Below the pieces are notes generated by a model. The model saw only the letters and a program-made list of their open reading frames with translations, did not search any database and was not told the DNA's origin. From the IMG/VR virus record IMGVR_UViG_3300047382_000470, positions 1 through 20,485 of that record: a DNA stretch of 20,485 nucleotides, one strand, 5' to 3'. Origin of the DNA: a virus. Position 1 is the first letter of the stretch, and each line of letters begins with the position of its first letter. The position numbers were made by a program, and so were the translations under genes. This document shows, in pieces, positions 1,559 through 18,932 of this stretch.

Positions 1559-1568
1559 AATATTTATT
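1559..1568 (+). promoter_or_regulatory. Candidate late promoter motif, tail tube gene
   Basis: The 10-mer AATATTTATT matches the motif RATATTTATA found before five other genes in this window. It ends 23 bases before the tube ATG at 1592. It lies inside the near-palindrome CTAATA-TT-TATTAG (1557-1570). The 20-base-upstream TTTG of the host-type promoters is absent. An AAGGAG at 1575-1580, between motif and start codon, is one of the few Shine-Dalgarno-like sites in the window. Promoter activity is inferred from recurrence and constant spacing. Confidence 0.55.
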
Positions 1569-1591
1569 AGTATAAAGGAGAAAATAAAAAA

Positions 1592-2080
1592 ATGGCAGAA
1601 GTATTAGAATTTAACGAAATGTTCTTTACCAACTTCGAACCGAAGATGAAGAACAGATATATCATGGAGATTGATGGAATTCAATCTTACTTGATAAAAA
1701 CAGCTAACAGACCATCTATCAACTTTGAAACTGTGAAGTTAGACCATATCAACACATACAGAAAATTACAAGGTAAAGGTGAATGGCAAGACTTAGAGAT
1801 TACTCTATATGACCCAATTGTTCCAAGTGGAGCACAACAAGTGATGGAATGGGTAAGATTAGGGTATGAATCAATTACTGGTAGAAAAGGATATGCAGAT
1901 TTCTACAAAAAGGATATTGATTTCTATATGTTAGGACCTGTTGGAGATAAAATCGAACAATGGAAGTTAAAGGGAGCATTTATAACTGCTGCAAACTTCA
2001 ATGATTTAGATTTTTCATCTAATGACCCTGCTGATATTTCGTTAACTTTATCATACGATTACGCAATATTAGAATACTAA
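1592..2080 (+). CDS. gp19: Tail tube protein (gp19-like)
   Basis: Structural subunit of the inner tail tube through which DNA passes. The product has 162 residues, almost the length of T4 gp19 (163). Family features include the N-terminal NRYIMEIDGIQSYLIKTANRP, which fits the first beta strands of tube proteins, then KLQGKGEWQDLEITLYDPI, where the tube fold has its conserved W and the long beta hairpin, and a C-terminal strand SLTLSYDYAILEY. The start at 1592 is preceded by AAGGAG at a suitable distance. The sheath gene is immediately upstream, and a strong terminator at 2104-2143 closes the unit. Tube and sheath can therefore be made at high level independently of the genes downstream. Confidence 0.93.
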   Translation: MAEVLEFNEMFFTNFEPKMKNRYIMEIDGIQSYLIKTANRPSINFETVKLDHINTYRKLQGKGEWQDLEITLYDPIVPSGAQQVMEWVRLGYESITGRKGYADFYKKDIDFYMLGPVGDKIEQWKLKGAFITAANFNDLDFSSNDPADISLTLSYDYAILEY

Positions 2081-2103
2081 AAATTTAATCCACTACTATT
2101 AAT

Positions 2104-2143
2104 AAGGGGAAATTCTTTTCGTAAGAATATCTCCTTTTTTTTT
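2104..2143 (+). terminator. Intrinsic terminator after tail tube gene
   Basis: Hairpin with left arm starting at 2104 (AAGGGGA-ATTCTT, one A-A mismatch), loop TTCGT at 2118-2122 and right arm AAGAATATCTCC, running into nine T residues (2135-2143). The paired arms contain a GGGG/CTCC base and an apical six-pair stem, so this is a good rho-independent terminator. A late-type promoter motif follows within 20 bases. Confidence 0.85.
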
Positions 2144-2159
2144 GACTTTTTTATTTTTA

Positions 2160-2169
2160 TATATTTATA
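2160..2169 (+). promoter_or_regulatory. Candidate late promoter motif, chaperone gene
   Basis: TATATTTATA, ending 23 bases before the ATG at 2193, exactly the spacing seen before the tube gene. It sits directly after the terminator at 2104-2143, so the downstream genes need a promoter here. It overlaps the near-palindrome TATATA-TT-TATATA. A TTTGAC at 2141-2146 is upstream but at 15 bases rather than the 20 seen in the host-type promoters. Confidence 0.55.
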
Positions 2170-2192
2170 TACACAATTAAACAATAAAAGTT

Positions 2193-2954
2193 ATGAGTGA
2201 AAAACAATTTGACTTCCCAACGGAAGTTATTGACCTACCTTCTGAGGGTAAAGTGTACCCATCAGATAATCCTCTATCTTCTGGTAAAGTAACATTAAAG
2301 TATATGACTGCCAAAGAAGAGGACATATTATCTTCTCAGAATCTTATTAAAAAGGGTGTTGTATTAGATAAATTATTTGAATCTATTGTAGTTGATGATG
2401 TAAATCTTGATGATATTACAATTGGTGATAAAAATGCTATCATACTTGCAACTAGAGTATTAGGATATGGACCTGAATACCCAATGAAATTTTATTCTAC
2501 TCATTTAGATGATGAGGTAGAAGGATTAGTGAATTTGGGTAAAGTAAAAACAAAGGAAGTAGATTTATCTTCATTTAATAATAAAAATGAACATGAATTT
2601 ACAACACCAACCGGTAAAAATAAGTTAACATTCAAATTGTTGACTCACGGTGATGAGAAAGCAATTGAAAAAGATATCGCAGCATTAGAAAAGTTTAACA
2701 AAGATGCATCCTTTGATATTACTACTCGATTAAGATATATGATTAAATCTGTTGATGGAAACGAAGATGTAGGTTTCATTAATAAATTTGTATCAAATAT
2801 GTTGGTTAGAGACAGTAGAGCATTTAGGAACTATGTCAAGAAAATCCAGCCTGACATGGATATGGTTTATACCCATGAGCACGAAGACGGTGAAAGGGAG
2901 GAAGTGCCTATTCAGTTAGGCGTCAACTTTTTTTGGCCTGGGGAAGACGCATAG
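2193..2954 (+). CDS. Tail assembly chaperone / baseplate hub assembly protein (gp26/gp51-like family)
   Basis: Probable non-structural or hub-assembly protein needed to start tail formation. The 253-residue product opens with the pattern VIDLPSEGKVYP, then VTLKYMTAKEEDILSSQNL and a later LGYGPEYPMKF, which I recognise from T4-like marine phages annotated as baseplate hub subunit gp26 or gp51-like. The C-terminus runs VPIQLGVNFFWPGEDA. Its place between tail tube and tape measure is where most tailed phages encode their tail assembly chaperones. It starts after a terminator and a late-type promoter motif. The last codons contain a run of seven T (2928-2934) where ribosomes could shift into the frame of the next ORF. 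The exact T4 counterpart is uncertain; family-level placement is more secure than the name. Confidence 0.72.
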   Translation: MSEKQFDFPTEVIDLPSEGKVYPSDNPLSSGKVTLKYMTAKEEDILSSQNLIKKGVVLDKLFESIVVDDVNLDDITIGDKNAIILATRVLGYGPEYPMKFYSTHLDDEVEGLVNLGKVKTKEVDLSSFNNKNEHEFTTPTGKNKLTFKLLTHGDEKAIEKDIAALEKFNKDASFDITTRLRYMIKSVDGNEDVGFINKFVSNMLVRDSRAFRNYVKKIQPDMDMVYTHEHEDGEREEVPIQLGVNFFWPGEDA

Positions 2955-2967
2955 TGCACAAATGCAC
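2928..2967 (+). promoter_or_regulatory. Possible programmed frameshift site with downstream hairpin
   Basis: Seven T residues at 2928-2934 are read as TTT-TTT-TGG near the end of the upstream gene. The frame of the 2962 ORF is already open from 2920, after its TAG at 2917-2919. A +1 or -2 slip on the T run would join the two proteins into about 319-320 residues. A perfect five-pair hairpin, GTGCA-CAAA-TGCAC (2954-2967), follows and contains the ATG of the second ORF, so it could stimulate slippage or restrict independent initiation. The 19-base spacer is longer than usual for a stimulatory structure. Confidence 0.4.
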
Positions 2968-3153
2968 AACCAAATATTTGAGTTGTGTCATTATGGTAAT
3001 GGATTTATTCAATCAGATGTTTATCGTTTGCCAACCTACCTTAGAAACTTCTACTACAATAAATTAATAGAAGCAAAGAAAAAGGAAAAACAAGAATACG
3101 ATAAAGTAAATAAAAATACTAAACCACCTTCTAAAGTTAGGGTAAGGAAGTAA
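2962..3153 (+). CDS. Second tail assembly chaperone ORF, possible frameshift extension
   Basis: The product is 63 residues if started at ATG 2962. The sequence begins MHNQIFELCHYGNGF and continues DVYRLPTYLRNFYYNKL before a highly charged tail (KKKEKQEYDKVNKNTK). The middle resembles short proteins that follow the gp26/gp51-like gene in other marine myoviruses, with an aromatic 'YLRNFYYNKL' helix. The reading frame differs from that of the upstream gene and extends without a stop back to 2920, overlapping its end. It could be made separately, by reinitiation eight bases after the upstream stop, or as a C-terminal extension through frameshifting. The start codon lies within a hairpin. A strong terminator overlaps the 3' end of the gene. 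Function is inferred from position. Confidence 0.65.
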   Translation: MHNQIFELCHYGNGFIQSDVYRLPTYLRNFYYNKLIEAKKKEKQEYDKVNKNTKPPSKVRVRK

Positions 3154-3177
3154 TATCTTTCTATCCTAACTTTTTTT
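3135..3177 (+). terminator. Intrinsic terminator after chaperone pair
   Basis: Long two-part hairpin. The outer stem AGTTAGG (3135-3141) pairs with CCTAACT (3165-3171). The inner stem AGGAAG pairs with CTTTCT around the loop TAATAT. Seven T residues follow (3171-3177). The left arm lies inside the last codons of the 63-residue ORF. Confidence 0.88.
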
Positions 3178-3184
3178 GTATTCC

Positions 3185-3194
3185 GATATTTATA
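3185..3194 (+). promoter_or_regulatory. Candidate late promoter motif, tape-measure/baseplate operon
   Basis: GATATTTATA ends 24 bases before the ATG at 3219 and directly follows the terminator at 3135-3177. It is flanked by TCCG and CGGA (3182-3200), giving an imperfect inverted repeat. Genes from 3219 to 10751 are packed with little spacing and show no other candidate promoter, so this may drive about 7.5 kb. Confidence 0.58.
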
Positions 3195-3218
3195 TACGGA
3201 TAACTAAATTATATAATC

Positions 3219-3440
3219 ATGGCAAGATATAAGATTTCAAAAGAAAATATTAATGAGTTCTTCGGTTTGTTTGGTAAAAAGAAAAAACCAGAAGAACTAA
3301 AGAAGATTATTCAAAATGACCCTACTTTACAAAAATTGGACAAAGAAATTGGTGATATAAATGCTAAATATTCTAAATCCATAAAAGGTAATAAAACGTT
3401 TATGGCACTCGCTAAGAAATATGGTGTTGAAGTAAAGTAG
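3219..3440 (+). CDS. Small protein of unknown function, likely virion-associated
   Basis: 73 residues, rich in lysine and without cysteine. The visible pattern is an N-terminal amphipathic segment ISKENINEFFGLFG, a KKKK cluster, then EELKKIIQNDPTLQKLDKEI and a C-terminal LAKKYGVEVK. Short proteins with an 'NDPxLxKLDKEI' segment occur among structural genes of marine myoviruses, but I cannot assign a function. It is the first gene after the late-type motif at 3185 and lies nine bases before the tape measure gene, so it is probably made together with the tape measure. It could be a small tail or baseplate component or an assembly factor. No membrane segment or signal peptide is seen. Confidence 0.7.
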   Translation: MARYKISKENINEFFGLFGKKKKPEELKKIIQNDPTLQKLDKEIGDINAKYSKSIKGNKTFMALAKKYGVEVK

Positions 3441-3449
3441 GATTATTAA

Positions 3450-5726
3450 ATGGACGGAAATTCACTAGAAAGACAACAAAAACTTCTACTAATTGAAAAG
3501 GAGAAGGAACAACTGGTTAAGAAACTTACTAAAAATAAGCAAAAACTTAATTCAGAAGAAAAAAAACTGCTCGAAAGTGAAGAAAAAAAGTTAAAAACAG
3601 TAAAGAAAAGACTAGGTGTAGAAAACGCCTATATAAAATCTACCTCCTCATTTCTTAGAGATTATAAAAAACTTAATGGGGATATACAAAAACAATTAGA
3701 GGGTCAAAAATCGAGTAGTAGTGGATTGTTTAAGCTTAACGAACAAATAGCAAAAGAAAAGGCTAGAGAAGCAAGGTATTCAGACCCTCAAACAAAATCT
3801 GCAAAAGAACAAAAATATATAGTTCAAGAAAGACTTAGTATTTTAGGGGATGTTGATAAAAACTTAATGTCTCAAGCTAAAGCAACACAAGATGCTCAAG
3901 ATGATTTATTGGGTATGACCCAAATTCAAAAAGATTTAAGAGACTTAAAAGCAAAAGAACATCTTTTAACAAAAGAACAATATAAACTAGCAGAAAATAC
4001 TATAAAACAAACAGATTTACTTAGACAAAAAGAAAAAAGACTAGTTGAAATAAAACAAGAGCAAAGTAACTTATTTAGTGCATTACCTGATTCTATACAA
4101 AGTATGGTTGGTGGTGCTAAAAAGTTCGGAGGAGCATTAACAGGTGCAGTAGCACCATTAGTATTAATTTCTGCTATTGCCATAGCAACTTTATCATCTT
4201 TTACTAAGTTAGATGAAGCAGCAGAAAGTTTCAGAAATGAAACAGGAATGACTAATTCTCAAATGGGAGAATTAAAATCTGATGCGAATGACCTTGTTTA
4301 TTCTTTTTCTAATTTAGGTGTTGAAGCAAAGGATGTCTTTGATTCGGTAAGTGCACTTAGGTCAGAATTTAGTGATATAGTAAAACCAAGTAAAGAGGTA
4401 GTTAGTTCTATGGTGGTTCTCTCCAAAAACTTTGGAGTATCTGCTGCAACTGGTGCAAAAGTACAAGGTATATTTGAACAAATCGGAGGTTTCTCTTCAG
4501 AAACAGCTGCAAGTATTCAAATGCAAGTTGTTCAAATGGCAAAACTTGCTGGTGTTGCTCCTGCCAAAATAATGGAAGATATTGCTGAAAATGCTGAAAT
4601 TGCATCAACTTTATTCAAAGGAGATGTTGAATCACTTACACAAGCAGCAATAGAAGCAAGAAGATTAGGTACTAATCTTAAATCAGTAGCAACAACAACC
4701 GAACACTTATTAGACTTCCAAGGAAATATTGGAGATGAGTTGGTAGCAGCGACATTCGTTGGTGGACAATTTAATTTAACACAAGCCCGTTCACTCGCAG
4801 CAGCAGGTAAAACGGTTGAAGCACAACGAGAGGTTCTTAAACAACTTGAAAGAGGAGGTAAGTTCAGAGATAAAGACTACTTTACACAACAACAACTTGC
4901 TAAAGCAGCAGGTATGAGTGTTGAAGAAATTAATAAACAATTAAATGCTCAAGAAAAATTAAACTCATTAACATCAGAACAACGAACTATTGCAGATAAA
5001 GCAATTAAACAAGGATTGGATATAAGTAATATAAGTAAAGAAGATTTAGCAAACCAAGTTCAATCTTTTGCAACACAACAAGAAATGCAAGGTAATCTTA
5101 CTCAAATGAAAAATACATTTACAGCAATTGCAGCATCGGTAGGTAGTATATTCTTACCAATACTTCAATCAGTTGCAGATGTAATGAGTTTTCTTACTTC
5201 AAATGCTGACGCATTACGAGTTTTCTTTGGTAGTCTTGCTGCTCTAACGTTAGTAATTTATGCAAATAAATTAAAAACATACGCACTAGCAAAAAAAGAA
5301 CTTATATTACAAGCTATATCAAATAGAAAAAGTATGGTTGGGGCAATTAGTAGTATATTTCAAGGTCAAGGTAAATTACCAATTGTTGGTGCTATAATAG
5401 CAGCAGCGATGGTTGCTGGTTTATTCGCTGCGATTAGTAAAGGAAGAGCTAAATCGGTTGGTGACCTTTCTATAAATCCAAATGGTGGACCAGTTGTAAT
5501 GTCCCCAAGAGAAGGTGGTTTATATCAAGGTACTGCTAATGATGCACTAACAATGGCTCCCCCAGGAGCAATGGGTGGTGGTGGTATGACTGCTTCTCAA
5601 GCAGAACGATTAATACGAGGGGTTGAAAAACAAAAAGAAACTTACTTAGATGGAAGAAGGGTTACTTCGAACATTGGTAGAGCAGTTGAAAAGTCTACCA
5701 TGAATAATTTTGCAATAGGAACATAA
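3450..5726 (+). CDS. Tail tape measure protein
   Basis: Sets tail length and is threaded inside the tube, from which it is ejected at infection. The 758-residue product has the expected architecture. Residues 1-210 are almost entirely charged, with long heptad-like stretches (EKEKEQLVKKLTKNKQKL; later repeated KQK/EQ runs), indicating coiled coil. A hydrophobic segment follows at about 228-251 (GALTGAVAPLVLISAIAIATLSS). Then comes a helical region rich in A, Q and S. Two further hydrophobic segments lie at about 587-606 and 643-665 (LPIVGAIIAAAMVAGLFAAI). The C-terminal tail is glycine-rich and ends with YLDGRRVTSNIGRAVEKS, a common ending in tape measure proteins. Its position between the chaperone pair and the baseplate genes supports the assignment. 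The next gene starts one base after the stop codon. Confidence 0.85.
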   Translation: MDGNSLERQQKLLLIEKEKEQLVKKLTKNKQKLNSEEKKLLESEEKKLKTVKKRLGVENAYIKSTSSFLRDYKKLNGDIQKQLEGQKSSSSGLFKLNEQIAKEKAREARYSDPQTKSAKEQKYIVQERLSILGDVDKNLMSQAKATQDAQDDLLGMTQIQKDLRDLKAKEHLLTKEQYKLAENTIKQTDLLRQKEKRLVEIKQEQSNLFSALPDSIQSMVGGAKKFGGALTGAVAPLVLISAIAIATLSSFTKLDEAAESFRNETGMTNSQMGELKSDANDLVYSFSNLGVEAKDVFDSVSALRSEFSDIVKPSKEVVSSMVVLSKNFGVSAATGAKVQGIFEQIGGFSSETAASIQMQVVQMAKLAGVAPAKIMEDIAENAEIASTLFKGDVESLTQAAIEARRLGTNLKSVATTTEHLLDFQGNIGDELVAATFVGGQFNLTQARSLAAAGKTVEAQREVLKQLERGGKFRDKDYFTQQQLAKAAGMSVEEINKQLNAQEKLNSLTSEQRTIADKAIKQGLDISNISKEDLANQVQSFATQQEMQGNLTQMKNTFTAIAASVGSIFLPILQSVADVMSFLTSNADALRVFFGSLAALTLVIYANKLKTYALAKKELILQAISNRKSMVGAISSIFQGQGKLPIVGAIIAAAMVAGLFAAISKGRAKSVGDLSINPNGGPVVMSPREGGLYQGTANDALTMAPPGAMGGGGMTASQAERLIRGVEKQKETYLDGRRVTSNIGRAVEKSTMNNFAIGT

Positions 5727-5727
5727 G

Positions 5728-7473: not shown

Positions 7474-7475
7474 TA

Positions 7476-7766
7476 ATGGCAAGTAGATACGAAAATAATC
7501 AGACCAAAAAAGTAAATGATGGTAGGACCGTATATCGTTCTAAGATATATCCAAGAATTCCACTAAGAGATAGTGACATTTATGTTGCTAGTGAAACTGG
7601 TGATAGATTAGATACATTAGCAAATCAATACTATAACGATTCTTCTTTATGGTGGATTATTGCATCTGCTAATAATTTACATAATGCTCCATTTGGATTA
7701 ACCGATGGAACTATTCTTAGAATACCAACAAACTATATTGAAATATTAAATAATTTCACTGAATAA
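7476..7766 (+). CDS. LysM-domain baseplate protein (gp53/gpX-like)
   Basis: 96 residues. The segment from about 30 to 85 reads as a LysM-type fold: DIYVASETGDRLDTLANQYY, NDSSLWWIIASANNL, then GTILRIPTN. The 'LWWIIASANNL' helix and the closing 'G-x-x-L-x-I-P' strand are characteristic of small phage tail LysM proteins such as P2 gpX, and the T4 wedge protein gp53 carries the same fold. In contractile systems these proteins sit at the hub-wedge interface and tie the tube to the sheath baseplate rather than degrading cell wall. The gene follows its neighbour by two bases, and its stop overlaps the ATG of the hub gene (AATG at 7764-7768). Confidence 0.85.
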   Translation: MASRYENNQTKKVNDGRTVYRSKIYPRIPLRDSDIYVASETGDRLDTLANQYYNDSSLWWIIASANNLHNAPFGLTDGTILRIPTNYIEILNNFTE

Positions 7767-10393: not shown

Positions 10394-10394
10394 G

Positions 10395-10751
10395 ATGAGT
10401 TTATTAAGATATAACATATTATTAAAAAAACAAAAAAAATCAGTAGGTGTTCCTTCTATAAAAACTCATTTACCTAATCCAACAGACGGTGATTATAATA
10501 AGGGATATATAAAAAGATACTTTGTACAAAAAGCAAACGATAAGGATTCTCAAATTTTTGAAGTTAGTCAAGTTCAGTACTCTTCATATTCAAACCTTTC
10601 TTACTACCTTTTAGTATCTATTGATTGGAGAGTAAGGGGAAACGTAGAGGAAGTTAAGTATTCAAATAAAGAATCTATTAAAATTGTTTATGGTAAAATG
10701 CCTAAACTGTCTCTTTACTTACCAAACTTATTACAATTTTATCGAAAATAA
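10395..10751 (+). CDS. Conserved small protein of unknown function, probable virion component
   Basis: 118 residues. Visible patterns are a basic N-terminus (LLKKQKKSVGVP), KGYIKRYFVQKANDKDSQIFEV in the middle, YYLLVSIDWRVRG, and a C-terminal MPKLSLYLPNLLQFYRK. Proteins with the 'GYIxRYFxxKxND' element accompany baseplate and neck genes in T4-like marine phages, but I know no function for them. It is the last gene of the run that begins at 3219, separated from the hub gene by one base. Its TAA stop is immediately followed by the TTTG box of the next gene's host-type promoter. The transcription programme therefore changes here. Confidence 0.7.
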   Translation: MSLLRYNILLKKQKKSVGVPSIKTHLPNPTDGDYNKGYIKRYFVQKANDKDSQIFEVSQVQYSSYSNLSYYLLVSIDWRVRGNVEEVKYSNKESIKIVYGKMPKLSLYLPNLLQFYRK

Positions 10752-10783
10752 TTTGGTAATCTGAATATTTTTTGTTATATTTG
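10752..10783 (+). promoter_or_regulatory. Host-type (Bacteroidetes) promoter, glycosyltransferase gene
   Basis: TTTG at 10752-10755 and TATATTTG at 10776-10783, separated by 20 bases. This matches the Bacteroidetes housekeeping consensus TTTG/TAnnTTTG without mismatch. Transcription should begin a few bases past 10783, leaving a short leader before the ATG at 10811. Confidence 0.82.
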
Positions 10784-10810
10784 GATAAGCAAAAATACAT
10801 TTATAAAACA

Positions 10811-11773
10811 ATGAAGGTTACTATTGTAGTTAGAACTTATAAAAGACCTCTATTCTTAAAAGAGGCATTGGCATCAATACATCTACAAACTCATAAAGAT
10901 TGGGAAGTGTTGATTTTTGATGATGGTGGATTATCTGAAACATTTTCTATTTACAAAAACTTCAAAAAAGAAAATAAAGATAAAAGAATTTTATTTTTTT
11001 CATCAAATCAACCATATTATTATTTCAAAGAAAGTTGGAAAATAGCACCTAAAATTTCAGAAGGAGAAATTATGGTTAGATTAGATGATGATGACTTACT
11101 GAGTGTAGACTCATTAGAGTATTTATCAAATACATACACAGAACATAAAGATTTAGATTTTTCATATGGTTCAACTATTTTCTTTGAAGGTAATGAATTA
11201 AAAAACAAAGTAATTACTCAGACTCCTTTAGAACCACCAAAAACAAAAGATATTTGGGAAGGTTATTTGGAAGGTCATCCTTGGAATAAACCATGGAGAT
11301 TCAAAATGAACCATTATGAAGAACCAAAAAATTATACATCAATAGTTCATTGTAGTAAAGCAAATATAATGTGTATCTATCACACTTATGTTATGAGAAC
11401 TTCATCAATTTTGAAAGTATTGGACAAATTTGATGTAACTTCTAATTTTGTAGATGATTTAGAGGTTATGGGTAGTTTAGATTATTTAGGTCTAAAACAT
11501 ACTGCAATAAAAAGAACTCTGACTTATTGTAGAATTCATAATGATGGTAGAGTAACTGATAAACAAAATGAAGTTGAAGGTCAAACCCTATGGAATAATA
11601 TATTATGGATTCGTGATAAAGTTGATTTTTTAAGAAAAGAAGGGTTCGAATCCACTATTTACTTAAATACCATAGAAAACAACAAAAATCAACAAGAAAT
11701 ACATCCAACCGAGCAATTAAACTTTAAGGAATACACACATGATATTCAATCAAAGTCAGAATTATTTGGATAA
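10811..11773 (+). CDS. Family 2 glycosyltransferase
   Basis: Transfers a sugar from a nucleotide sugar to an unknown acceptor; probably cytoplasmic, as no membrane segment is seen. The 320-residue product has a GT-A fold signature: VTIVVRTYKRPLFLKEALASI at residues 3-23, the nucleotide-binding FDDGG at 36-40, and the metal-binding LDDDD at 91-95. A possible catalytic acidic motif DDLEV lies at 215-219, with a basic/aromatic TYCRIHNDGR segment at 238-247. I chose ATG 10811 rather than an upstream in-frame TTG at 10772, because the -7 promoter element overlaps that TTG and transcription must start downstream. It sits between late structural genes but carries its own host-type promoter. Candidate acceptors are phage DNA bases, host surface glycans or a virion protein. 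The sequence does not decide. Confidence 0.85.
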   Translation: MKVTIVVRTYKRPLFLKEALASIHLQTHKDWEVLIFDDGGLSETFSIYKNFKKENKDKRILFFSSNQPYYYFKESWKIAPKISEGEIMVRLDDDDLLSVDSLEYLSNTYTEHKDLDFSYGSTIFFEGNELKNKVITQTPLEPPKTKDIWEGYLEGHPWNKPWRFKMNHYEEPKNYTSIVHCSKANIMCIYHTYVMRTSSILKVLDKFDVTSNFVDDLEVMGSLDYLGLKHTAIKRTLTYCRIHNDGRVTDKQNEVEGQTLWNNILWIRDKVDFLRKEGFESTIYLNTIENNKNQQEIHPTEQLNFKEYTHDIQSKSELFG

Positions 11774-11796
11774 TTGAAATAATTTTTGTATATTTG
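11765..11796 (+). promoter_or_regulatory. Host-type promoter, polymerase-like gene
   Basis: TTTG at 11765-11768, 20 bases, then TATATTTG at 11789-11796. The first box lies within the last codons of the glycosyltransferase gene. The ATG at 11806 begins nine bases after the -7 element, so the transcript would be leaderless or nearly so. Confidence 0.82.
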
Positions 11797-11805
11797 TAAG
11801 TTCAA

Positions 11806-13089
11806 ATGGTTATAGTAGAAAGTAATAAAGAAAAAGAAGAGTTTTTACAATTGTGGGAGAATAATCCTTCTATTGTAATTCCTATATGGTGTGATTTGGA
11901 TAAACATCCAATGAACAATGAACTTGCGTTCTTATTCGTAAGGGTGGGGAAAATTGACTTTATTCTTATATATAATCATATTGATGGTAAATCCCATCAT
12001 TTAGACCTTTCAACATCAACACAACCCAAATGGGTATGGAATAAGAAAGGTTTATTACAAACCGATACCAATATTCAAAATATATTTGATATATCCAATT
12101 ACTACTTCTTTGAAGTTGGTAAAATTATACCCAATGAGGTACAAAATCAACCTTTTATCTCACATTATACCCGAATGGGTGTAAGAGATAATTTGGGAAA
12201 GATAGCACCTATAATGAAATGGAGTGAATATCTAAAATCATTTGTTGATAATATAAGTAGTACCATTCCTCCTTCCGATTTATCTCCTAAAAGTTGGATT
12301 GATAATACGATGATTCCTCTTTTATCTCAGATTGAACGATATGGGGTTGGGGTCGATAGTGAAAAATTTTTTGATAGATACCCAAATGCCACCAAACACT
12401 TATCTAATAATACCCTTTATACCGAATACAATCCATACACGATTACATCAAGACCTTCCAATAGATTTGGTGGTATTAACTTTTCTGCACTAAACAAAAA
12501 AGATGGTACAAGAGAAGTTTTTATCCCAAAACCAAATCATATATTCCTACAAATGGATTATGATGCTTATCACCCACGAATTATTGGTAAGTTGATTGAT
12601 TACGAATTACCCGATACTTCGGTTCACCAATGGTTGGCAGACCAATATGGTGTTGATTATGGAGAATCCAAAGGAATTACATTCCAACTCCTTTATGGTG
12701 GTATACCCGAAGAGTTCGACTCTATTCCTTATTATAAGAAGGTTAGAGAGTACATCGATGAAATGTGGGGTAAGGCATCGAAAAAAGGTTATGTATCGAC
12801 TTACAATCGAAATATACCTCTTAGTTCGATAGAAGGTTTGAATCCACAAAAAGTATTTAACTATTTACTACAAGCAACTGAAACTGAGTTAAATATGGAT
12901 ACAATGAGGAAAGTGTTGGAGTTTATTGAACAAACCGACATTGAGTTAAGTTTATACACATATGATTCATTCTTATTTTCTTATCCATTGGATACTCCTA
13001 AAGAACATGCTCTTAAACTAAAAGAAATAGTAGAAAGTAATGGGTTTCCTATAAACGCAACTTGGGGAACGGATTACTCAAAACTTTAA
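11806..13089 (+). CDS. Compact family-A DNA polymerase-like protein
   Basis: 427 residues, against about 600 for a Klenow-type fragment. The C-terminal half aligns by eye with Pol I: TSRPSNR (213-219, Pol I TGRLSS), motif A MDYDAYHPRI with D251, motif B SKGITFQLLYGG with K289, F293 and Y297, the FNYLLQATE segment with Q356, and motif C YTYDSFLF with D387. Both catalytic aspartates are kept. Changes are notable: the steric-gate Glu of DYSQIELR is H256, the motif B Arg four residues before the Lys is Tyr, and the motif C 'HDE' is 'YDS'. The thumb is mostly absent. The N-terminal 150 residues contain WCDLDKHPMNNEL, a possible remnant of the 3'-5' exonuclease motif I, but no clear exo II or III. 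It may be an active small polymerase or a replication accessory. A consensus host-type promoter lies immediately upstream. Confidence 0.78.
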   Translation: MVIVESNKEKEEFLQLWENNPSIVIPIWCDLDKHPMNNELAFLFVRVGKIDFILIYNHIDGKSHHLDLSTSTQPKWVWNKKGLLQTDTNIQNIFDISNYYFFEVGKIIPNEVQNQPFISHYTRMGVRDNLGKIAPIMKWSEYLKSFVDNISSTIPPSDLSPKSWIDNTMIPLLSQIERYGVGVDSEKFFDRYPNATKHLSNNTLYTEYNPYTITSRPSNRFGGINFSALNKKDGTREVFIPKPNHIFLQMDYDAYHPRIIGKLIDYELPDTSVHQWLADQYGVDYGESKGITFQLLYGGIPEEFDSIPYYKKVREYIDEMWGKASKKGYVSTYNRNIPLSSIEGLNPQKVFNYLLQATETELNMDTMRKVLEFIEQTDIELSLYTYDSFLFSYPLDTPKEHALKLKEIVESNGFPINATWGTDYSKL

Positions 13090-13097
13090 TATTTATA
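13088..13097 (+). promoter_or_regulatory. Candidate late promoter motif, 542-residue protein gene
   Basis: AATATTTATA, overlapping the TAA stop of the polymerase-like gene and ending 20 bases before the ATG at 13118. No host-type TTTG box lies 20 bases upstream. The motif marks the return to late-type expression after the two host-promoter genes. Confidence 0.55.
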
Positions 13098-13117
13098 GGA
13101 TATAGGAAGATTTAAGT

Positions 13118-14746
13118 ATGGATTATTTTAAGCAATTAATAAGTGATATAATAACCGAGGTTTCTTACAGAACTAAAGAAGGTGTTTTGGATTTTGATAA
13201 TCCATCTCATATTAATATTTTTTCTGAGGTATTGGATGAATTTGGGTTGGGTGAAATCAAACACCAATTAATTCAAAATATTTTTGAAGTAAACGAAGAA
13301 ACTGACTCGGATGAAAAAGATGAAATCGAAGAACTAATATCAGAAGCAAGTATTTTAGACCCTAAATATAAACCAGGTCATCAAGTTGTTGTAAAAGATA
13401 AAGTAACTTTTGCTAAACAATTAAAAGTAGGGGATGTAGTTACCATTGTAACAAATAAAGAAGGTGAACCAGATTATGGTTCTGGTGATTTTGAAAAAAC
13501 ATTAAAATTTCCAGATGGTAAAGAGTTCAAAATTGCATCAAATAATAAAGGATATGGTTCTACTATGTTTAATCATCTTAAATCTGGTAAATCAATGCCA
13601 AGTGGTGAAGATTGGGAATCATTAATTATTGTAGCATTTAATGAAAAATATGAAGGTTACGAATGGGAAAGAGCAGAAAAGTTTTGGTCAGATTATGGTG
13701 AAGATGCAAAAAAAGTTGCTGATTCATTTAGAAAAGTAATTAAATCAAAAAATTTATCTCAATTAGGTGCTTCTACTGCTGCATTAAATTCTAATTGGGG
13801 TGGTTCAAATAAAACACCTAAAACCGACATTTTAGGGGATACTGATGAAAGAATATCACTAAAAAAAGCAGGTGGTTCACAATTAATGAGTGGAGGACCT
13901 GAAGAAGCACTCGCAACATTTGATGCGGCAATGCAGATGGTTGGTCAAAATAAACCAAAAGTATTAGATTCATTCTTAAATACGTTAGAAGAAAAAATGG
14001 GTAGAATGAGTCAATCAGGTACTATCACTGCACTTCAAAAATTAAGAGATAGTGGTGAACAACTAACTAAAGACCAAGAAAAACAAATCGCAGAGATGGA
14101 AAAACTCCAACTAAATGCAAAAGAAATAAATTTGGATATGTCTTCAGTGTTTAAGGATATTTACTTCAAAAGTTGTTTTTGTTTCGAAGCAGCAACTGGT
14201 ACTACTAAGTTTGCTGATAAAAAAGCAGTAGCAAATGAATTGATTGAGTTTAATCCAGGTAGTGGAGAAATTACTGCACATTTACCTATGAAAAAAATTG
14301 AAGATGCAAAAGTACTTGCAAACTCTAACTCATTTTATGTATCATTCAAGACGGGTGGTGGAGGTTCTAAACCATATCTTGCGTTGAGAACAAAAAAAAT
14401 GAGTAAAAAACAAATGTTAGGTGAAGATATAGAAACATTTAGAGATATTGTAGTAGAAGAGTTTTCAAAATCAGACTATGGTATGAATTTCTTAAATGAA
14501 GCAAATGAAGAACAACTTAATGAGTTTCAAATCTTCAATAAATTATCAAAGGGTATTAAAAATGTATCATCCAAGATAAAAGACCAAGCAAAAAAAATAC
14601 TAGATGGGATTCTAAAAAGAATCAAATTAGCGTTTGATTCTATAAAAAGAATGGGTCGTAAGATGTTTGATAGTATTATGTACTTTTTGGGTATGAAAGT
14701 AGAATCTGTTAAGATTTCAAGTGGTGGCAAGTTTCCATTAGTCTAA
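13118..14746 (+). CDS. Probable virion protein with a possible PD-(D/E)XK-like core
   Basis: 542 residues, no signal peptide. Residues 55-80 are acidic. A central block reads WESLIIVAFNEKYEGYEW (166-183), then NKTPKTDILG (231-240) and RISLKKAGGSQLMSGG (245-260), followed by FEAATGTTKF (356-364). This set recurs in proteins encoded among structural genes of marine T4-like phages. The spacing TDI...ISLK resembles motifs II and III of PD-(D/E)XK nucleases, with D237 and K249 as candidate metal and catalytic residues and Ser in place of the usual acidic residue, so the fold may be present but inactive. The C-terminus (475-525) is a basic amphipathic region rich in KI/KR, fit for membrane or DNA contact. 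The late-type motif at 13088 and the context suggest a virion component. Nuclease activity is only a hypothesis. Confidence 0.6.
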   Translation: MDYFKQLISDIITEVSYRTKEGVLDFDNPSHINIFSEVLDEFGLGEIKHQLIQNIFEVNEETDSDEKDEIEELISEASILDPKYKPGHQVVVKDKVTFAKQLKVGDVVTIVTNKEGEPDYGSGDFEKTLKFPDGKEFKIASNNKGYGSTMFNHLKSGKSMPSGEDWESLIIVAFNEKYEGYEWERAEKFWSDYGEDAKKVADSFRKVIKSKNLSQLGASTAALNSNWGGSNKTPKTDILGDTDERISLKKAGGSQLMSGGPEEALATFDAAMQMVGQNKPKVLDSFLNTLEEKMGRMSQSGTITALQKLRDSGEQLTKDQEKQIAEMEKLQLNAKEINLDMSSVFKDIYFKSCFCFEAATGTTKFADKKAVANELIEFNPGSGEITAHLPMKKIEDAKVLANSNSFYVSFKTGGGGSKPYLALRTKKMSKKQMLGEDIETFRDIVVEEFSKSDYGMNFLNEANEEQLNEFQIFNKLSKGIKNVSSKIKDQAKKILDGILKRIKLAFDSIKRMGRKMFDSIMYFLGMKVESVKISSGGKFPLV

Positions 14747-14767
14747 TTACCCCCAAATTAATTATTT

Positions 14768-14777
14768 GATATTTATA
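14768..14777 (+). promoter_or_regulatory. Candidate late promoter motif, 133-residue protein gene
   Basis: GATATTTATA, ending 27 bases before the ATG at 14805. It lies inside a larger inverted repeat, AATTACC (14745-14751) and GGTAATT (14778-14784), whose right arm adjoins the motif. It may drive the whole set of genes up to the halogenase, which are closely spaced. Confidence 0.52.
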
Positions 14778-14804
14778 GGTAATTGATTAATATATAAAAA
14801 ATTT

Positions 14805-15206
14805 ATGAAAACACAATTATTGTGTACATTTACTTCAAAGGATGGGTTACAAAAGACTCTACAAGATATTAGAGAGACTTATGTGATAGTGTATAACTAT
14901 ATCTATATCTTACAGAATAAGTCAAACTTAGATGAACTTTACGTTACCTATAATATTAATACGGAGTTCAAACCACCACAACCTTTAGAAGATACAATAC
15001 TAATACACAGAAAAAAAGAATCAAATACTTTATACACCATTAACGCACTAAACCAATTAGTGAGAGAAGAAAATGGTGGTGTATTAGATAAGACATTTAT
15101 CATTGATTGGCAAAAATTTAGAAATTCAATAATACTTACAAATACTGAGGGTACGAAACGTATTCAAACTCGTATCTTTGAGGTTATAGAATTTAATCAG
15201 AAATAA
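14805..15206 (+). CDS. Conserved phage protein of unknown function
   Basis: 133 residues. The N-terminus MKTQLLCTFTSKDGL and the segments IYILQNKSNLDELYVTYNI, ILIHRKKESNTLYTINALN and IIDWQKFRNSIILTN form a pattern I recall from short proteins encoded near structural genes of cyanophages and other marine myoviruses, where it has no assigned role. No membrane segment, signal peptide or cysteine-rich motif is seen; the single cysteine is C7. The fold looks mixed alpha/beta. It is the first gene after the late-type motif at 14768 and precedes the cell-wall enzyme gene by 11 bases, so it is probably expressed late. A role in the virion or in assembly is inference from position. Confidence 0.7.
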   Translation: MKTQLLCTFTSKDGLQKTLQDIRETYVIVYNYIYILQNKSNLDELYVTYNINTEFKPPQPLEDTILIHRKKESNTLYTINALNQLVREENGGVLDKTFIIDWQKFRNSIILTNTEGTKRIQTRIFEVIEFNQK

Positions 15207-15217
15207 ATAAATAAGAA

Positions 15218-15829
15218 ATGGCAAAATTCACAAGAGAACAAATAGAAGAAACGTTAAAGGGTAAAGGATATAAATACTTTACAAGTGATAAAGGATTTGA
15301 TGTTAACATTGTTGGTATCAGAAATTCGGATACACATGGTGAAGTAACAAATAAATTTGATGATACTTTAACAATATCTTATAAAGATTCAGATGGAAAG
15401 TGGATTTATAATGAATATAAAGCAACAACTGACCCTGGTTCACATTGGGAAAAGAACTTATTGAACAAAGATGGTGTAGCAATTCTTAAACCAGGTCAAT
15501 ACAGAGGTTCTCATAAAATTGGATTACACCAAGGTAAATATGAGGCACTAAGACAACAAAAACCTGTTAAGGTTTATAGAGATAATAACAAAGATGGTAA
15601 ATATGATATGATTGAAGAAAATGTACATGAAGGTATATTTGGAATCAACATTCATAAAGCTGGAAAGTTTGTAAATGGTTCAACTCAGATTGATAAATGG
15701 TCTGCTGGTTGTCAAGTACTATCTAAAGAATCGGATTTCAACGAATTTATGGAAATTTGTAGAAAAGCTAGAGATGTATGGGGAAACTCTTTCACATACA
15801 CACTAATAGAATCGAAAGATATTTCGTAA
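15218..15829 (+). CDS. L,D-transpeptidase-like cell-wall enzyme, candidate endolysin
   Basis: 203 residues without a signal peptide or membrane segment. The C-terminal half carries FGINIHKAG with H146 and WSAGCQVL with S162-A-G-C165, the His...SxGC arrangement of YkuD-type L,D-transpeptidases, which use the Cys as nucleophile on peptidoglycan stem peptides. Upstream are TTDPGSHW (70-77) and GQYRGSHKIGLHQGKYEAL (93-111), a pattern I recall from Bacteroidetes chromosomal and phage proteins. YRDNNKDGKYD (120-130) resembles a calcium-binding loop (D-x-N-x-D-G). In a phage the likely role is to cut or modify the host wall at lysis or entry. It lies beside fibre-like genes, so a virion enzyme is also possible. 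No holin gene is recognisable nearby. Activity, hydrolysis or transfer, cannot be told from sequence. Confidence 0.72.
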   Translation: MAKFTREQIEETLKGKGYKYFTSDKGFDVNIVGIRNSDTHGEVTNKFDDTLTISYKDSDGKWIYNEYKATTDPGSHWEKNLLNKDGVAILKPGQYRGSHKIGLHQGKYEALRQQKPVKVYRDNNKDGKYDMIEENVHEGIFGINIHKAGKFVNGSTQIDKWSAGCQVLSKESDFNEFMEICRKARDVWGNSFTYTLIESKDIS

Positions 15830-15845
15830 AACAAAATGAGGTTAT

Positions 15846-16082
15846 ATGGCACAAGAATTATCGAAAGTAGTAAACGCAGCATTTCAAGGTGAACCAGAAC
15901 ACATTGTGTTTCAAATACAATCTACAAAGGAAAAGATAGAACCAACTGACATTCTTAAAGTTGTTGATAGTGGAGTAGAACGAGATTCCAATATGCCTAC
16001 TGATATGTGGGAGGTGGTTAATAGAAATAATAATCACGAATGTAATATAGATTTAGAAACCAAAACCCTTTATTATATTTAG
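15846..16082 (+). CDS. Small protein of unknown function
   Basis: 78 residues, acidic, with one cysteine and no hydrophobic segment, so it is not a holin candidate. Visible segments are LSKVVNAAFQGEPEHIVFQIQ, IEPTDILKVVDSGVE and MWEVVNRNNNHECNI. I do not recognise the family. The start at 15846 (ATATGG) fits the spacing; an ATG ten bases upstream is in another frame. It lies 16 bases after the cell-wall enzyme gene and two bases before the fibre-like gene, so it is part of the same transcription unit and may be a partner or assembly factor of either neighbour. Confidence 0.6.
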   Translation: MAQELSKVVNAAFQGEPEHIVFQIQSTKEKIEPTDILKVVDSGVERDSNMPTDMWEVVNRNNNHECNIDLETKTLYYI

Positions 16083-16084
16083 TT

Positions 16085-16633
16085 ATGCCTATAACAACAT
16101 CAGGAATTGTAAGAGCTTCGGATATAAATACCGAATTTAGAAGGTCGAGTCGTTCATATATGTCTATATGGCATGCTAGAAATGGTTATTATGGTACTGT
16201 TAATACACGAAGGGATAGAAATCCACTTGGTGTTGGTCAAACCAATTCAGGTTATGCTTATTCGGATTGGAGAGGATATCACCACCAAGCATCATTCGCA
16301 CAAATTTATTTGAATCAACGAGAAGCAGATGCAGATGTAGATACTAGAGTAATAAATTATCATTGGCAAGGCACATACATAACTCAAAGATGGCAGTGGG
16401 GAACTACAAATTTAAGATGGATAGGAAACGAACCATATGGTAGAAGATACAATGTTTTATTTGATAATAATGTTGGATGGGGTTCTGCTTGGGCACTTAC
16501 TAGTAGAAGAATATATTCAAATCAAAGAGGATACTTATTAAATGTCCGAGAACGAGTTAGGGATTTTAGATTCTATGATTACTTTACAACAAATAATGGA
16601 GAAAATATTTATATTACAAATACTTCTCCATGA
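16085..16633 (+). CDS. Tail-fibre-like or distal tail protein
   Basis: 182 residues. The N-terminus PITTSGIVRASDINTEFRRSS is a motif I know from tail and fibre proteins of marine myoviruses, where 'ITxSGxIxxSDINxELG' begins a short structural domain. A following YGTVNTRRDRNPLGV and SDWRGYHHQ fit the companion '(S)DxxGY' element. The rest is unusually rich in Arg, Tyr and Trp (RWQWGTTNLRWIGNEPYGRRY), and compositionally beta-rich, as in receptor-binding domains. It lies among small late genes and just before two paralogues. The protein is short for a fibre, so it may be a fibre tip, a connector or a virion decoration. Receptor binding is inferred. Confidence 0.62.
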   Translation: MPITTSGIVRASDINTEFRRSSRSYMSIWHARNGYYGTVNTRRDRNPLGVGQTNSGYAYSDWRGYHHQASFAQIYLNQREADADVDTRVINYHWQGTYITQRWQWGTTNLRWIGNEPYGRRYNVLFDNNVGWGSAWALTSRRIYSNQRGYLLNVRERVRDFRFYDYFTTNNGENIYITNTSP

Positions 16634-16662
16634 AGATTAGTATATAAAACAAAAAACAAATT

Positions 16663-16914
16663 ATGGCAACAAGATATTATAAAACAGCAGATACATATTT
16701 CAAAATTGATGATGGAACAAATGAAGTAATAAGTGTAACCACAAATAGTGATAACAAATGTATAGCTATGAGTATTGATAATAGTGGTTCACCATATACA
16801 CCAATTCAAGAATTTGATTCATATGTTGAAAGAGGAGAAGCTGAACTTATTAGTTCTTCTTTATATGAAGAGAAAAAAATTGAGGTAAAACAATATATAA
16901 GTGATAATTTATAA
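16663..16914 (+). CDS. Small protein, paralogue A of an adjacent pair
   Basis: 83 residues, starting MATRYYKTADTYFKIDDGTNEV. Comparison with the next product shows the shared frame M-x-T-x-Y-x-K-x-x-D-x-YFK, an I/V-x-S strand, a central S-rich beta region, a 'Y-x-x-I-x-E' type segment and a C-terminal helix with YE-x-x-K-x-E-x-K-x-Y. The two are therefore probably tandem duplicates that have diverged. No catalytic motif, cysteine-rich site, signal peptide or membrane segment is visible. The last base of its stop codon is the A of the next ATG. Position between the fibre-like gene and the halogenase suggests a small structural or carrier protein, but function is unknown. Confidence 0.68.
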   Translation: MATRYYKTADTYFKIDDGTNEVISVTTNSDNKCIAMSIDNSGSPYTPIQEFDSYVERGEAELISSSLYEEKKIEVKQYISDNL

Positions 16915-17198
16915 TGAGTACTCATTACATAAAATCACTTGACAATTATTTCAAATTAGTTGATGAGACACTTCAGATAACTAGTTTAGTTACTTCATCT
17001 TACTCGAATGATAGTGGAAGTACTGAAGTAAGTGCTATTACAATATCAAGTATAAATGATTCCTCACGATATGAAGGTATAAAAGAGGGATTTTTAACAA
17101 GTTCAATGAGTGGTTCATCTGCCCCTCAAATCATTACTCAAGTAGAGTATGAATCAGTAAAAGAAGAAATTAAAAGTTATTATTTAGAAATTATATAG
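16914..17198 (+). CDS. Small protein, paralogue B of an adjacent pair
   Basis: 94 residues, starting MSTHYIKSLDNYFKLVDETLQI, a clear relative of the preceding product. It is longer through a serine-rich middle (SSYSNDSGSTEVS and later SSMSGSSAP). The C-terminal helix VEYESVKEEIKSYYLEII matches LYEEKKIEVKQYI of paralogue A. The start overlaps the preceding stop (TAATG), and the halogenase ATG follows one base after its stop, so translation of the three is likely coupled. Ser and Tyr residues are abundant in both paralogues. I see no enzymatic motif. A role as structural protein or as a substrate or partner of the halogenase is speculation from context. Confidence 0.68.
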   Translation: MSTHYIKSLDNYFKLVDETLQITSLVTSSYSNDSGSTEVSAITISSINDSSRYEGIKEGFLTSSMSGSSAPQIITQVEYESVKEEIKSYYLEII

Positions 17199-17199
17199 A

Positions 17200-18747
17200 A
17201 TGAAAATTGTTATAGTAGGTGGAGGAACCGCAGGTTGGTTATCTTCACTATTCCTTGCCAACATCAATAGGAGAGATGAAAAAAATCCCTTATACGATAT
17301 TACAGTAGTAGAAAGTGAAGACATTCCAATCATAGGTGCGGGTGAAGGTTCAACTGGTGCTATGGCTCTCGCACTCATAAATACACTAAAAGATTTAGAA
17401 GGATTAAGTGAACAAACTTTTTTTGAAGAATGTAGTACTACTTTTAAGTTAGGTATTGAGTGTAAAGATTGGAATGGTATAGGTGATTCTTATTTTGAAC
17501 CAATACAACCAACAAAAACATGGGAACTACCAATTGATGTAGATTTTTGTATTTCTAAAAAATATAAAGATGCTTCATATGGGACTTTTAACAGAGTTTT
17601 GTGGGACAATAATTTATCTGCATTTTCAAAAGATGGAACTGTTGGTGATGAGGGGTATGCTTATCATTTTGATGCACATAAAGTTGGAGAATACTTCAAA
17701 AAAGTTGCATTAAAAAATGGAATAAAATTACAAAAAGGTACAGTATCTAATACCAACATAAACCCTCAGAATGGTGAATTACAAAAAGTAAAACTTTCAG
17801 ATGGTACTGAAATAGAATCCGATTTTTGGATTGATTGTACTGGATTCAATAGAGTTCTTATAAATTCAGTAGGTTATGAATGGGTTTCTTATTCAGATTA
17901 TCTTCCTGTAAATTCAGCACTTGTTTATACTCATGAAATAAATGAAAATGAAATTATTAAACCATCAACTTTAGCATGGGCAATGCCAAATGGTTGGATG
18001 TGGCAAATACCAACACAAGAAAGATATGGTTGTGGATATTGTTATTCTGATAAGTTTGTATCTGAGGAACAAGCTCTGAAAGAACTACAAGAAGTTACTG
18101 GTAGAAAGATAACACCACTTAGAAATATAAAGTTCGATAGTGGAAGATTGAAAGAAGTTTGGAAAAAGAATGTACTTTCAGTAGGATTATCATCTTCCTT
18201 CTTAGAACCATTAGAAGCAACATCAATTCATTCATCTATTATTCAGTTAGTTAATTTTACACAACATCACTTATCACACATTAAAGAAAACTTACTTAGA
18301 GAGTCCAATATAAAATCATATAATACTGGTTTTAATAGAATGGTAGATGATTTTAGAGACCTTGTTCAAATCCATTATATGGTAGAAAGAGAAGACACAC
18401 CATTTTGGAAATATATAAAAAACGATTTGAAACGAGGTGATTTGGTAAAGAAAATCTTAGAACTATGTGAATATAGAGTTCCAAATTCTTGGGATTTTGA
18501 TAATTACAATGGTTCTGCTGGTTGGGCAGTTTGGTCTTTTATTCTAGCAGGTAATAAATTAATTTCAGATAAGGTTTTAGATAACACTATGAAATCACAG
18601 GGAATTCACATTATGGGTCCTGATGCATATCAAAAACTAGAAGAGTATTGGAAAAAGAATAGTGAAAATTACTTACACCACACGGAATTTATCCAAGCTA
18701 TCAAAAATTTTAATAAAAATAAATCAAAAAATTTGGAATTGTCATAA
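17200..18747 (+). CDS. Flavin-dependent halogenase (tryptophan halogenase family)
   Basis: Uses reduced FAD, oxygen and halide to make hypohalous acid, which halogenates an aromatic or other electron-rich substrate. 515 residues, close to PrnA/RebH (about 530-540). The FAD-binding GGGTAGW is at 7-13. The lysine that carries the halogenating species is in TFKLGIE at K83. The diagnostic GWMWQIP (WxWxIP) is at 265-271. The EPLE motif at 336-339 corresponds to the PrnA EPLES region with its active-site Glu. All key elements are present, so activity is likely. A cyanophage member of this family (VirX1) is known to iodinate many substrates. No flavin reductase gene is in the window, so reduced flavin would come from the host. 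The true substrate is unknown. The preceding gene ends one base upstream. Confidence 0.92.
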   Translation: MKIVIVGGGTAGWLSSLFLANINRRDEKNPLYDITVVESEDIPIIGAGEGSTGAMALALINTLKDLEGLSEQTFFEECSTTFKLGIECKDWNGIGDSYFEPIQPTKTWELPIDVDFCISKKYKDASYGTFNRVLWDNNLSAFSKDGTVGDEGYAYHFDAHKVGEYFKKVALKNGIKLQKGTVSNTNINPQNGELQKVKLSDGTEIESDFWIDCTGFNRVLINSVGYEWVSYSDYLPVNSALVYTHEINENEIIKPSTLAWAMPNGWMWQIPTQERYGCGYCYSDKFVSEEQALKELQEVTGRKITPLRNIKFDSGRLKEVWKKNVLSVGLSSSFLEPLEATSIHSSIIQLVNFTQHHLSHIKENLLRESNIKSYNTGFNRMVDDFRDLVQIHYMVEREDTPFWKYIKNDLKRGDLVKKILELCEYRVPNSWDFDNYNGSAGWAVWSFILAGNKLISDKVLDNTMKSQGIHIMGPDAYQKLEEYWKKNSENYLHHTEFIQAIKNFNKNKSKNLELS

Positions 18748-18763
18748 ATTTGTCTTATATTTG
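18732..18763 (+). promoter_or_regulatory. Host-type promoter, first of tandem pair before gp32
   Basis: TTTG at 18732-18735, 20 bases, then TATATTTG at 18756-18763. The TTTG box lies in the last codons of the halogenase gene. An ATG begins nine bases downstream at 18773. The first twelve bases, ATTTGGAATTGT, are repeated exactly in the second promoter of the pair. Confidence 0.8.
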
Positions 18764-18772
18764 TGACAATAT

Positions 18773-18847
18773 ATGAAGAAATACACCTCCGAAAAAAAAA
18801 TTACAAAACATTTGGAATTGTTAAAAACTTTTCGTATATTTGTATAA
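18773..18847 (+). CDS. Possible 24-residue leader peptide ORF
   Basis: A short ORF starting nine bases after a perfect host-type -7 element, the same distance as for the polymerase-like gene. The product would be basic (MKKYTSEKKITKHLELLK, then a short hydrophobic end). Its 3' half overlaps the second promoter of the pair. It could be a small phage peptide, a translated leader or chance. There is no homology I can name, and the length gives no statistical support, so promoter spacing is the only argument. Confidence 0.25.
   Translation: MKKYTSEKKITKHLELLKTFRIFV
18811..18842 (+). promoter_or_regulatory. Host-type promoter, second of tandem pair before gp32
   Basis: TTTG at 18811-18814, 20 bases, then TATATTTG at 18835-18842. 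Transcripts would start near 18849 and meet the weak terminator at 18860-18884 before reaching gp32. An ATG again follows nine bases after the -7 element, at 18852. Confidence 0.8.
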
Positions 18848-18851
18848 ATAA

Positions 18852-18932
18852 ATGGAGATAGACCCTCTTAAAATTGGGTTTTTTGATATTTATATAAGGT
18901 GTAGGAAAGACACCAAAATAAAACCTAAATAA
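18852..18932 (+). CDS. Possible 26-residue leader peptide ORF
   Basis: The ORF starts nine bases after the second host-type promoter of the tandem pair and ends at TAA 18930-18932, 28 bases before the gp32 ATG. The predicted product begins MEIDPLKIGFFDIYIRC and ends basic. It spans a weak terminator-like hairpin, the late-type motif and the GGTGT/ACACC hairpin, so its translation could influence those structures, as in attenuation. It may equally be a by-product of regulatory sequence. Evidence is limited to the ATG position. Confidence 0.2.
   Translation: MEIDPLKIGFFDIYIRCRKDTKIKPK
18860..18884 (+). terminator. Weak terminator or attenuator in the gp32 leader
   Basis: ACCC (18862-18865) can pair with GGGT (18876-18879), extended by an A-T and a G-T pair at the base (18860-18861 with 18880-18881), around a ten-base loop. 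Six T residues follow (18879-18884). The stem is short, so termination would be partial. A late-type motif starts at the next base, as after the two strong terminators earlier in the window. Confidence 0.45.
18885..18894 (+). promoter_or_regulatory. Candidate late promoter motif, gp32 region
   Basis: GATATTTATA directly after the T run of the weak terminator. It ends 66 bases before the gp32 ATG, more than twice the spacing seen elsewhere, leaving room for the hairpin leader at 18898-18926 in the transcript. gp32 thus appears to have both host-type and late-type promoters. Confidence 0.5.
18898..18926 (+). promoter_or_regulatory. Candidate translational operator of the gp32-like gene
   Basis: GGTGT (18898-18902) pairs perfectly with ACACC (18910-18914) around the loop AGGAAAG. 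The loop's AGG (18903-18905) can pair with CCT (18924-18926), which would make an H-type pseudoknot. Some 34 bases of A/T-only, structure-poor sequence, with two TTAAA elements, then run to the ATG at 18961. T4 gene 32 is autoregulated by gp32 binding a pseudoknot followed by an unstructured A/U-rich leader, so the layout is comparable. The S2 stem is short, and this is a structural inference. Confidence 0.4.

Follow-up and report, generated by a model that had tools for sequence, protein, structure and literature searches.

A strand-specific box before virion genes of T4-like Bacteroidota phages, a probable late promoter, and its candidate sigma factor

The box in the window and in related phages

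The stretch of DNA analysed here (the window) comprises positions 1 to 20,485 of the IMG/VR virus record IMGVR_UViG_3300047382_000470, 20,485 nucleotides in all. Because it encodes a tail sheath, a gp19 tail tube, baseplate genes, gp32, and UvsX, the window was assigned to a T4-like phage. A short recurrent box precedes several of its genes on the coding strand (Table 1); it was also found before the orthologous genes of related phages and is almost certainly a promoter. A sequence-only reading of the window had listed six copies of RATATTTATA. All six positions hold the motif, but only four copies are exact, the boxes at 1559 and 2160 reading AATATTTATT and TATATTTATA; the distances to the ATG (23, 23, 24, 20, 27, and 66 nt) are as had been given. 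Three copies had been placed directly after a terminator. The hairpins before two of them fold well, but the gp32 box follows a weak stem and six T. Another exact match, at 16604–16613, had been overlooked. Exact copies number five on the + strand and none on the − strand, against a mean of 0.79 in shuffled sequence, and 0 of 100 shuffles reached five. With one mismatch allowed, the window alone holds no excess (15 versus 17.9 expected); it therefore cannot prove the motif by itself, and proof was sought in relatives.

Relatives are encoded on at least ~600 IMG/VR contig stretches among the matches listed. Among isolates, gp19 identity to the window was 62% in Mel-JY01, 49% in Flavobacterium phage immuto, and 44% in Rhodothermus phage RM378. 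The long relative used, G013, is a 252,603-base contig with a UvsX 99% identical to that of the window over 227 residues and with an agreeing gene order. The enrichment sample consisted of 80 related IMG/VR loci with 466 non-identical 60-nt upstream regions; some of the sampled genomes are close relatives, and P values pooling them are optimistic.

The commonest 9-mer in these upstream regions was ATATTTATA, with 136 copies on the coding strand versus 3 of the reverse complement and a position peak 30–35 nt before the ATG. Strand bias extended to whole genomes (33 coding to 2 opposite in G013, 16 to 1 in immuto) and was present in 17/17 IMG/VR records tested; T4 (6 to 7) and RM378 (3 to 3) had none. 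Upstream box counts exceeded every dinucleotide shuffle: in G013, for example, the box stood in 19 upstream regions, compared with 0.8 on average after shuffling. The scan of relatives against shuffled sequence, with the distance to starts, thus bore out an enriched coding-strand element ~30 nt before the ATG. No such box occurred in the 50 kb tested of LR756508 (484 kb, gp19 52% identical). Applied to T4 late leaders, the same procedure gave TATAAATA as the top 8-mer, so the method is able to find known late promoters. A reverse-reading control was uninformative, since ATATTTATA is the same word backwards.

RATATTTATA proved to be a real motif but too narrow a description. The family core is ATATTTAT[AT], with immuto also using CTATTTATA and RM378 TATTTAA. 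Several relatives (G001, G013, and G014) read ATACTTATA at the position of the box at 2160 before the hub gene, and this 9-mer has 27 copies in the 466 upstream regions, which suggests that C is tolerated at that position.

Table 1. Promoter-related features and marker genes of the window (all on the + strand; counts are orthologous leaders carrying the late box unless stated otherwise)
Feature	Positions	Strand	Support
Late box AATATTTATT before gp19 tail tube (ATG 1592)	1559..1568	+	[AC]TATTTAT[AT] in 54/54 non-identical leaders; same sequence in G001, G013, G014
gp19 tail tube gene (late)	1592..2080	+	phrog_4542, E 7e-31
Terminator hairpin with T-run before hub box	2104..2136	+	fold −13 kcal/mol, z −3.1
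Late box TATATTTATA before baseplate hub gene (ATG 2193)	2160..2169	+	29/53
Terminator hairpin with T-run before 3185 box	3133..3173	+	fold −18.2 kcal/mol, z −4.7
Late box GATATTTATA before ORF 3219-3440, then large ORF 3450-5726	3185..3194	+	9/9
Host-type promoter TTTG ... TATATTTG before glycosyltransferase-like ORF (ATG 10811)	10752..10783	+	read from sequence
Host-type promoter TTTG ... TATATTTG before DNA-polymerase-like gene (ATG 11806)	11765..11796	+	TTG..TAnnTTTG in 12/13, late box in none
Late box AATATTTATA before ORF 13118-14746	13088..13097	+	9/11; kept in G013
Late box GATATTTATA before ORF 14805-15206	14768..14777	+	19/19
Possible seventh box AATATTTATA, end of ORF 16085-16633, 49 nt before ATG 16663	16604..16613	+	exact match; not conserved in the only relative aligned, G001; uncertain
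Host-type promoter TTTG ... TATATTTG, first of two upstream of gp32	18732..18763	+	read from sequence
Host-type promoter TTTG ... TATATTTG, second upstream of gp32	18811..18842	+	read from sequence; box conserved in close relatives
Weak terminator-like stem with T6 before gp32 box	18860..18881	+	fold −6.3 kcal/mol, z −0.3
Late box GATATTTATA 66 nt before gp32 (ATG 18961), directly upstream of conserved leader hairpin	18885..18894	+	box within 130 nt in 33/37 gp32 leaders
Conserved gp32 leader hairpin GGTGT-AGGAAAG-ACACC	18898..18914	+	stem covariation: 14 cells changed on both sides, 92% of cells paired
gp32-like single-strand DNA binding protein	18961..19785	+	phrog_1192, E 8e-23

Genes served by the box and by host-type promoters

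Conservation of the box followed the gene. It recurred in the orthologous leaders counted in Table 1, and operon-internal structural genes lacked it (0/3, 0/17, 0/23, and 0/15 orthologous leaders); leaders of the DNA-polymerase gene carried the host-type element instead. In immuto, the late box stood before 9/21 structural or lysis genes versus 0/20 replication/nucleotide and 0/17 early-cluster genes (P 3e-5), and a host-like TTG-N-TATATTTAG element before 12/17 early-cluster genes versus 0/41 others. Virion genes and not replication genes are thus marked, with the exception of gp32, a replication gene with both kinds of promoter. From this distribution, the box very probably acts late. In NC_055915, at ~60–76 kb, ~19 copies of TTG-N-TATATTTAGGTATCAATAATTAAAACA precede small unknown genes, and their leader is conserved as well; by sequence, these copies are a predicted host-like early promoter.

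The boxes open operons. The median upstream gap was ~50 nt for genes with a box versus ~8 nt for genes without, and terminator-like hairpins preceded 26/125 boxes versus 17/890 other genes, 11 times as often. The almost fixed distance of ~30 nt to the ATG would also suit an RNA signal, i.e., one for translation initiation or mRNA processing or a leader element, in place of a promoter. We regard this as very unlikely, given that the box is absent from operon-internal genes, that boxes stand directly after terminators, and that the distance changes to ~64–93 nt at gp32, with an intervening hairpin, and to ~10–25 nt in the RM378 form.

The sequence-only reading had also contrasted the box with the host −7 box, noting A in place of G and a missing −33 TTTG, and the profiles confirmed this. 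The late profile (73 sites) was TATATTTATA, with a TTG frequency at −28..−18 of 0.25 versus 0.15 in the control interval, i.e., not clearly enriched. Host-type boxes of the same genomes gave TATATTTG, with TTG at 0.55 versus 0.16 in the control. The promoter of the Bacteroidota primary sigma factor, sigma-ABfr, is TTTG / TAHHTTTG (PMC6847099), and its −7 box occupies −12 to −5 in Flavobacterium (PMC6847099). TATATTTATA and TATATTTG start with the same seven bases, and the same phages put the host-type box before other operons; the late box differs by A where the host promoter has G and by the lack of a clear −33 element. It is absent from host leaders: a set of 818, taken from the surroundings of groEL on low-GC Bacteroidota-type contigs, contained ATATTTATA once forward and once reverse, compared with 135 forward and 45 reverse matches to TAHHTTTG.

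The seven common bases and the weak conservation of the −33 element in F. johnsoniae itself (PMC6847099) leave room for another explanation, in which the box is a host sigma-A (sigma-ABfr) promoter in a weak or activator-dependent form, recognized by host sigma that is either unmodified or altered by a phage protein (a middle promoter). We consider it unlikely. The late box does not have the G with which the host −7 box ends, the −33 TTG is enriched at host-type boxes and not clearly at late boxes of the same genomes, the two boxes stand at different orthologous genes, host leaders lack the late box, and the same phages encode a gp55-like protein (see below).

The leader of gp32 combines both promoter kinds. 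Two tandem host-type promoters (18732–18842) precede its late box, and the gene therefore seems to be served in both phases. In relatives, the late box lies ~64–93 nt from the ATG with a hairpin in between, which may explain the exceptional 66-nt spacing in the window. The hairpin, which takes the form GAGTG..CACTC elsewhere (leaders of L118–L197) and is followed by an A/T-rich leader, resembles the autoregulatory leader of T4 gene 32. A pseudoknot (AGTTT with AAACT) could be formed in some members, which is suggestive, though in most sequences it was no better than in shuffles. A search of the window against Rfam gave no match.

A candidate late sigma factor

A weak match to the gp55 profile (phrog_234) in immuto led to the protein KNV73_gp118. 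Its homologues, at 39% identity, are encoded in Mel-JY01 (158764–159534) and G013 (46919–47638), and others occur in hundreds of viral contigs. The profile of the candidate family (A5, 36 members) matched that of T4 plus cyanophage gp55 in hhalign with E 7.6e-7 and a score of 49.6 over 110 columns of the region-2 part, and column-shuffled controls (n = 60) scored at most 17.3; the match became clear because cyanophage gp55 had been added to the T4 profile. AlphaFold models of the candidates (mean pLDDT 74 and 77) resemble sigma factors in a predicted region 2 fold: nearly all Foldseek matches were sigma factors, the best with a probability of 0.97. Region 2 is followed by an additional helical C-terminal domain (137–224), which might stand in for region 4 or gp33. 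Searches with phrog_1740 and Pfam Sigma70_r2 did not detect a sigma factor in immuto, Mel-JY01, or the IMG/VR relatives.

Among 33 non-identical sigma loci, a host-type match was the nearest upstream element in 30, and no late box occurred within 2.2 kb upstream. The sigma gene of immuto is directly followed by a late box, the first one in the structural region, and that of G013 is followed by the box-like sequence TATATTTATT. A late box after the gene and a host-type promoter before it are the arrangement expected if host-type promoters make the sigma factor, which then activates the late ones.

We therefore propose the following scheme. The late promoter would consist of a core [ACGT]TATTTAT[AT], in the clade mostly TATATTTATA, situated ~30 nt ahead of the opening ATG in structural-gene operons and lacking an evident −33 element, and transcription would probably start a few bases downstream. 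A phage sigma factor with distant homology to T4 gp55 most likely brings the host RNA polymerase to this box. Its own gene lies in operons without a late box, the assignable promoter being usually of the host type, so that the cascade would run from host-type promoters through the phage sigma to the late boxes. That this particular candidate recognizes the box is probable, and for the scheme as a whole, a late promoter core directed by a gp55-like phage sigma, we consider the case good. Of the sequence-only suggestion of a distinct phage sigma recognition, a phage-specific, probably late promoter unlike that of the host and a plausible phage-encoded sigma stood; the claimed reading direction relative to T4 did not.

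Several observations weigh against this scheme. The box signal was weaker in Mel-JY01 (17 to 6). About half of the immuto structural genes have no box of their own, which is expected for operons but not proven, and late-type matches occur at 74282 and 74566, within the early cluster of immuto. The homology of the candidate to gp55 is distant: the T4-only gp55 profile gave E 0.008, the PHROG gp55 match was weak and confined to immuto, Pfam returned no sigma match to the protein, and Foldseek E-values were no better than 0.02. The host-promoter pattern used upstream of the sigma gene was loose, and some of its matches may be due to chance. A gp45-type clamp was not found with PF02916; since Mel-JY01 has clamp-loader genes, a diverged sliding clamp is likely.

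Phage-encoded RNA polymerases exist in other Bacteroidota phages (crAss-like), so the box might be conceived as a promoter for such an enzyme. For T7-like and multisubunit RNA polymerase genes, neither PF00940 nor PF00562 found a match in 10 relatives, the PF00940 search having no positive control, and we consider this origin of the box highly improbable.

Comparison with other late promoters

The late promoter of T4, TATAAATA, is likewise a single box at the −10 position (−13 to −6; PMC1524935), without a −35 element, just upstream of the virion-gene operons it drives (PMC1524935, PMC2988020, PMC7892883). A phage sigma of the gp55 kind would be common to both systems, although the candidate described here is far diverged, unannotated, and ~50 aa longer, and no gp45-type clamp was found with PF02916. 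The box in the window had been described as reading opposite to the T4 element. This was not upheld: written in one orientation, TATAAATA and TATTTATA agree at 6/8 positions and differ at the central pair, where AA is replaced by TT; their reverse complementarity is due solely to the palindromic TAT..ATA. In the upstream regions of relatives, TATAAATA itself occurred 10 times versus 140 times for TATTTATA. The complementarity could still be taken to mean that the box is a T4-type late promoter on the other strand, giving antisense or leftward transcription. We regard this as almost certainly wrong. The genes lie on one strand, and the boxes stand close to the 5′ ends of these genes, in many cases behind a terminator; a leftward transcript would enter the upstream gene, and the same-direction alignment TAT[AA/TT]ATA makes such an assumption unnecessary.

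A precedent for a late box changing together with gp55 is Aeromonas phage Aeh1, with the late box CTAAATA and a diverged gp55 (PMC1524935), although the change there is a different one and the phage infects a gammaproteobacterium. RM378 (NC_004735) is likewise T4-like and belongs to a related group of hosts; TATTTAA, continued by an A-rich stretch, was found in it at 36/111 annotated genes checked, mostly 10–25 nt before the ATG. These boxes precede the tube, sheath, portal, and many unknown genes and are not found at polymerase or helicase genes; they stand sometimes in divergent pairs and sometimes after terminators. The RM378 box differs from the late box in its ending (AA, not TA) and in its spacing, but as both have the TATTTA core, the latter is wider than the Bacteroidota clade. 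No profile link was found between the RM378 sigma (Rm378p144, phrog_1740; regions 2 and 4) and the A5 family. More speculatively, T4-like phages of Bacteroidota and Rhodothermota might represent an ancient branch of late promoters built around TATTTA, where a sigma of two domains (a gp55-like region 2 and its own C-terminal domain) takes the place of T4 gp55 and gp33; the box would combine features of the T4 late and host −7 boxes, as though it had been fitted, along with the sigma, to the polymerase of Bacteroidota. We consider this possible but doubtful.

Late transcription of the gp55 type was already known, and Aeh1 shows that the box can change with gp55 (PMC1524935). What seems to be new is the box of the Bacteroidota phages, together with the so far unannotated family of sigma factors and the late/early map across the clade: no earlier description of the box or sigma was found in the searchable literature, outside of which most subscription papers lie. 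For a very common and mostly uncultured phage group, early (host-type) and late-box transcription could thus be mapped from sequence, with a specific unannotated protein named as the probable late sigma factor. The adaptation of gp55-type late transcription to the divergent Bacteroidota polymerase becomes testable, and a promoter–sigma pair without a host counterpart is a candidate orthogonal expression tool for Bacteroidota.

Mel-JY01 (PP395634) was deposited as a Microcystis phage; its gp19, UvsX, and putative late sigma group with those of Bacteroidota phages, and its host assignment may need checking. It also carries 6–7 copies of a AACAACCTAACAG-like sequence upstream of genes. The window itself contains a tryptophan-halogenase-like gene (17200–18747; phrog_2928, E 2e-106), here present in a phage of this kind.

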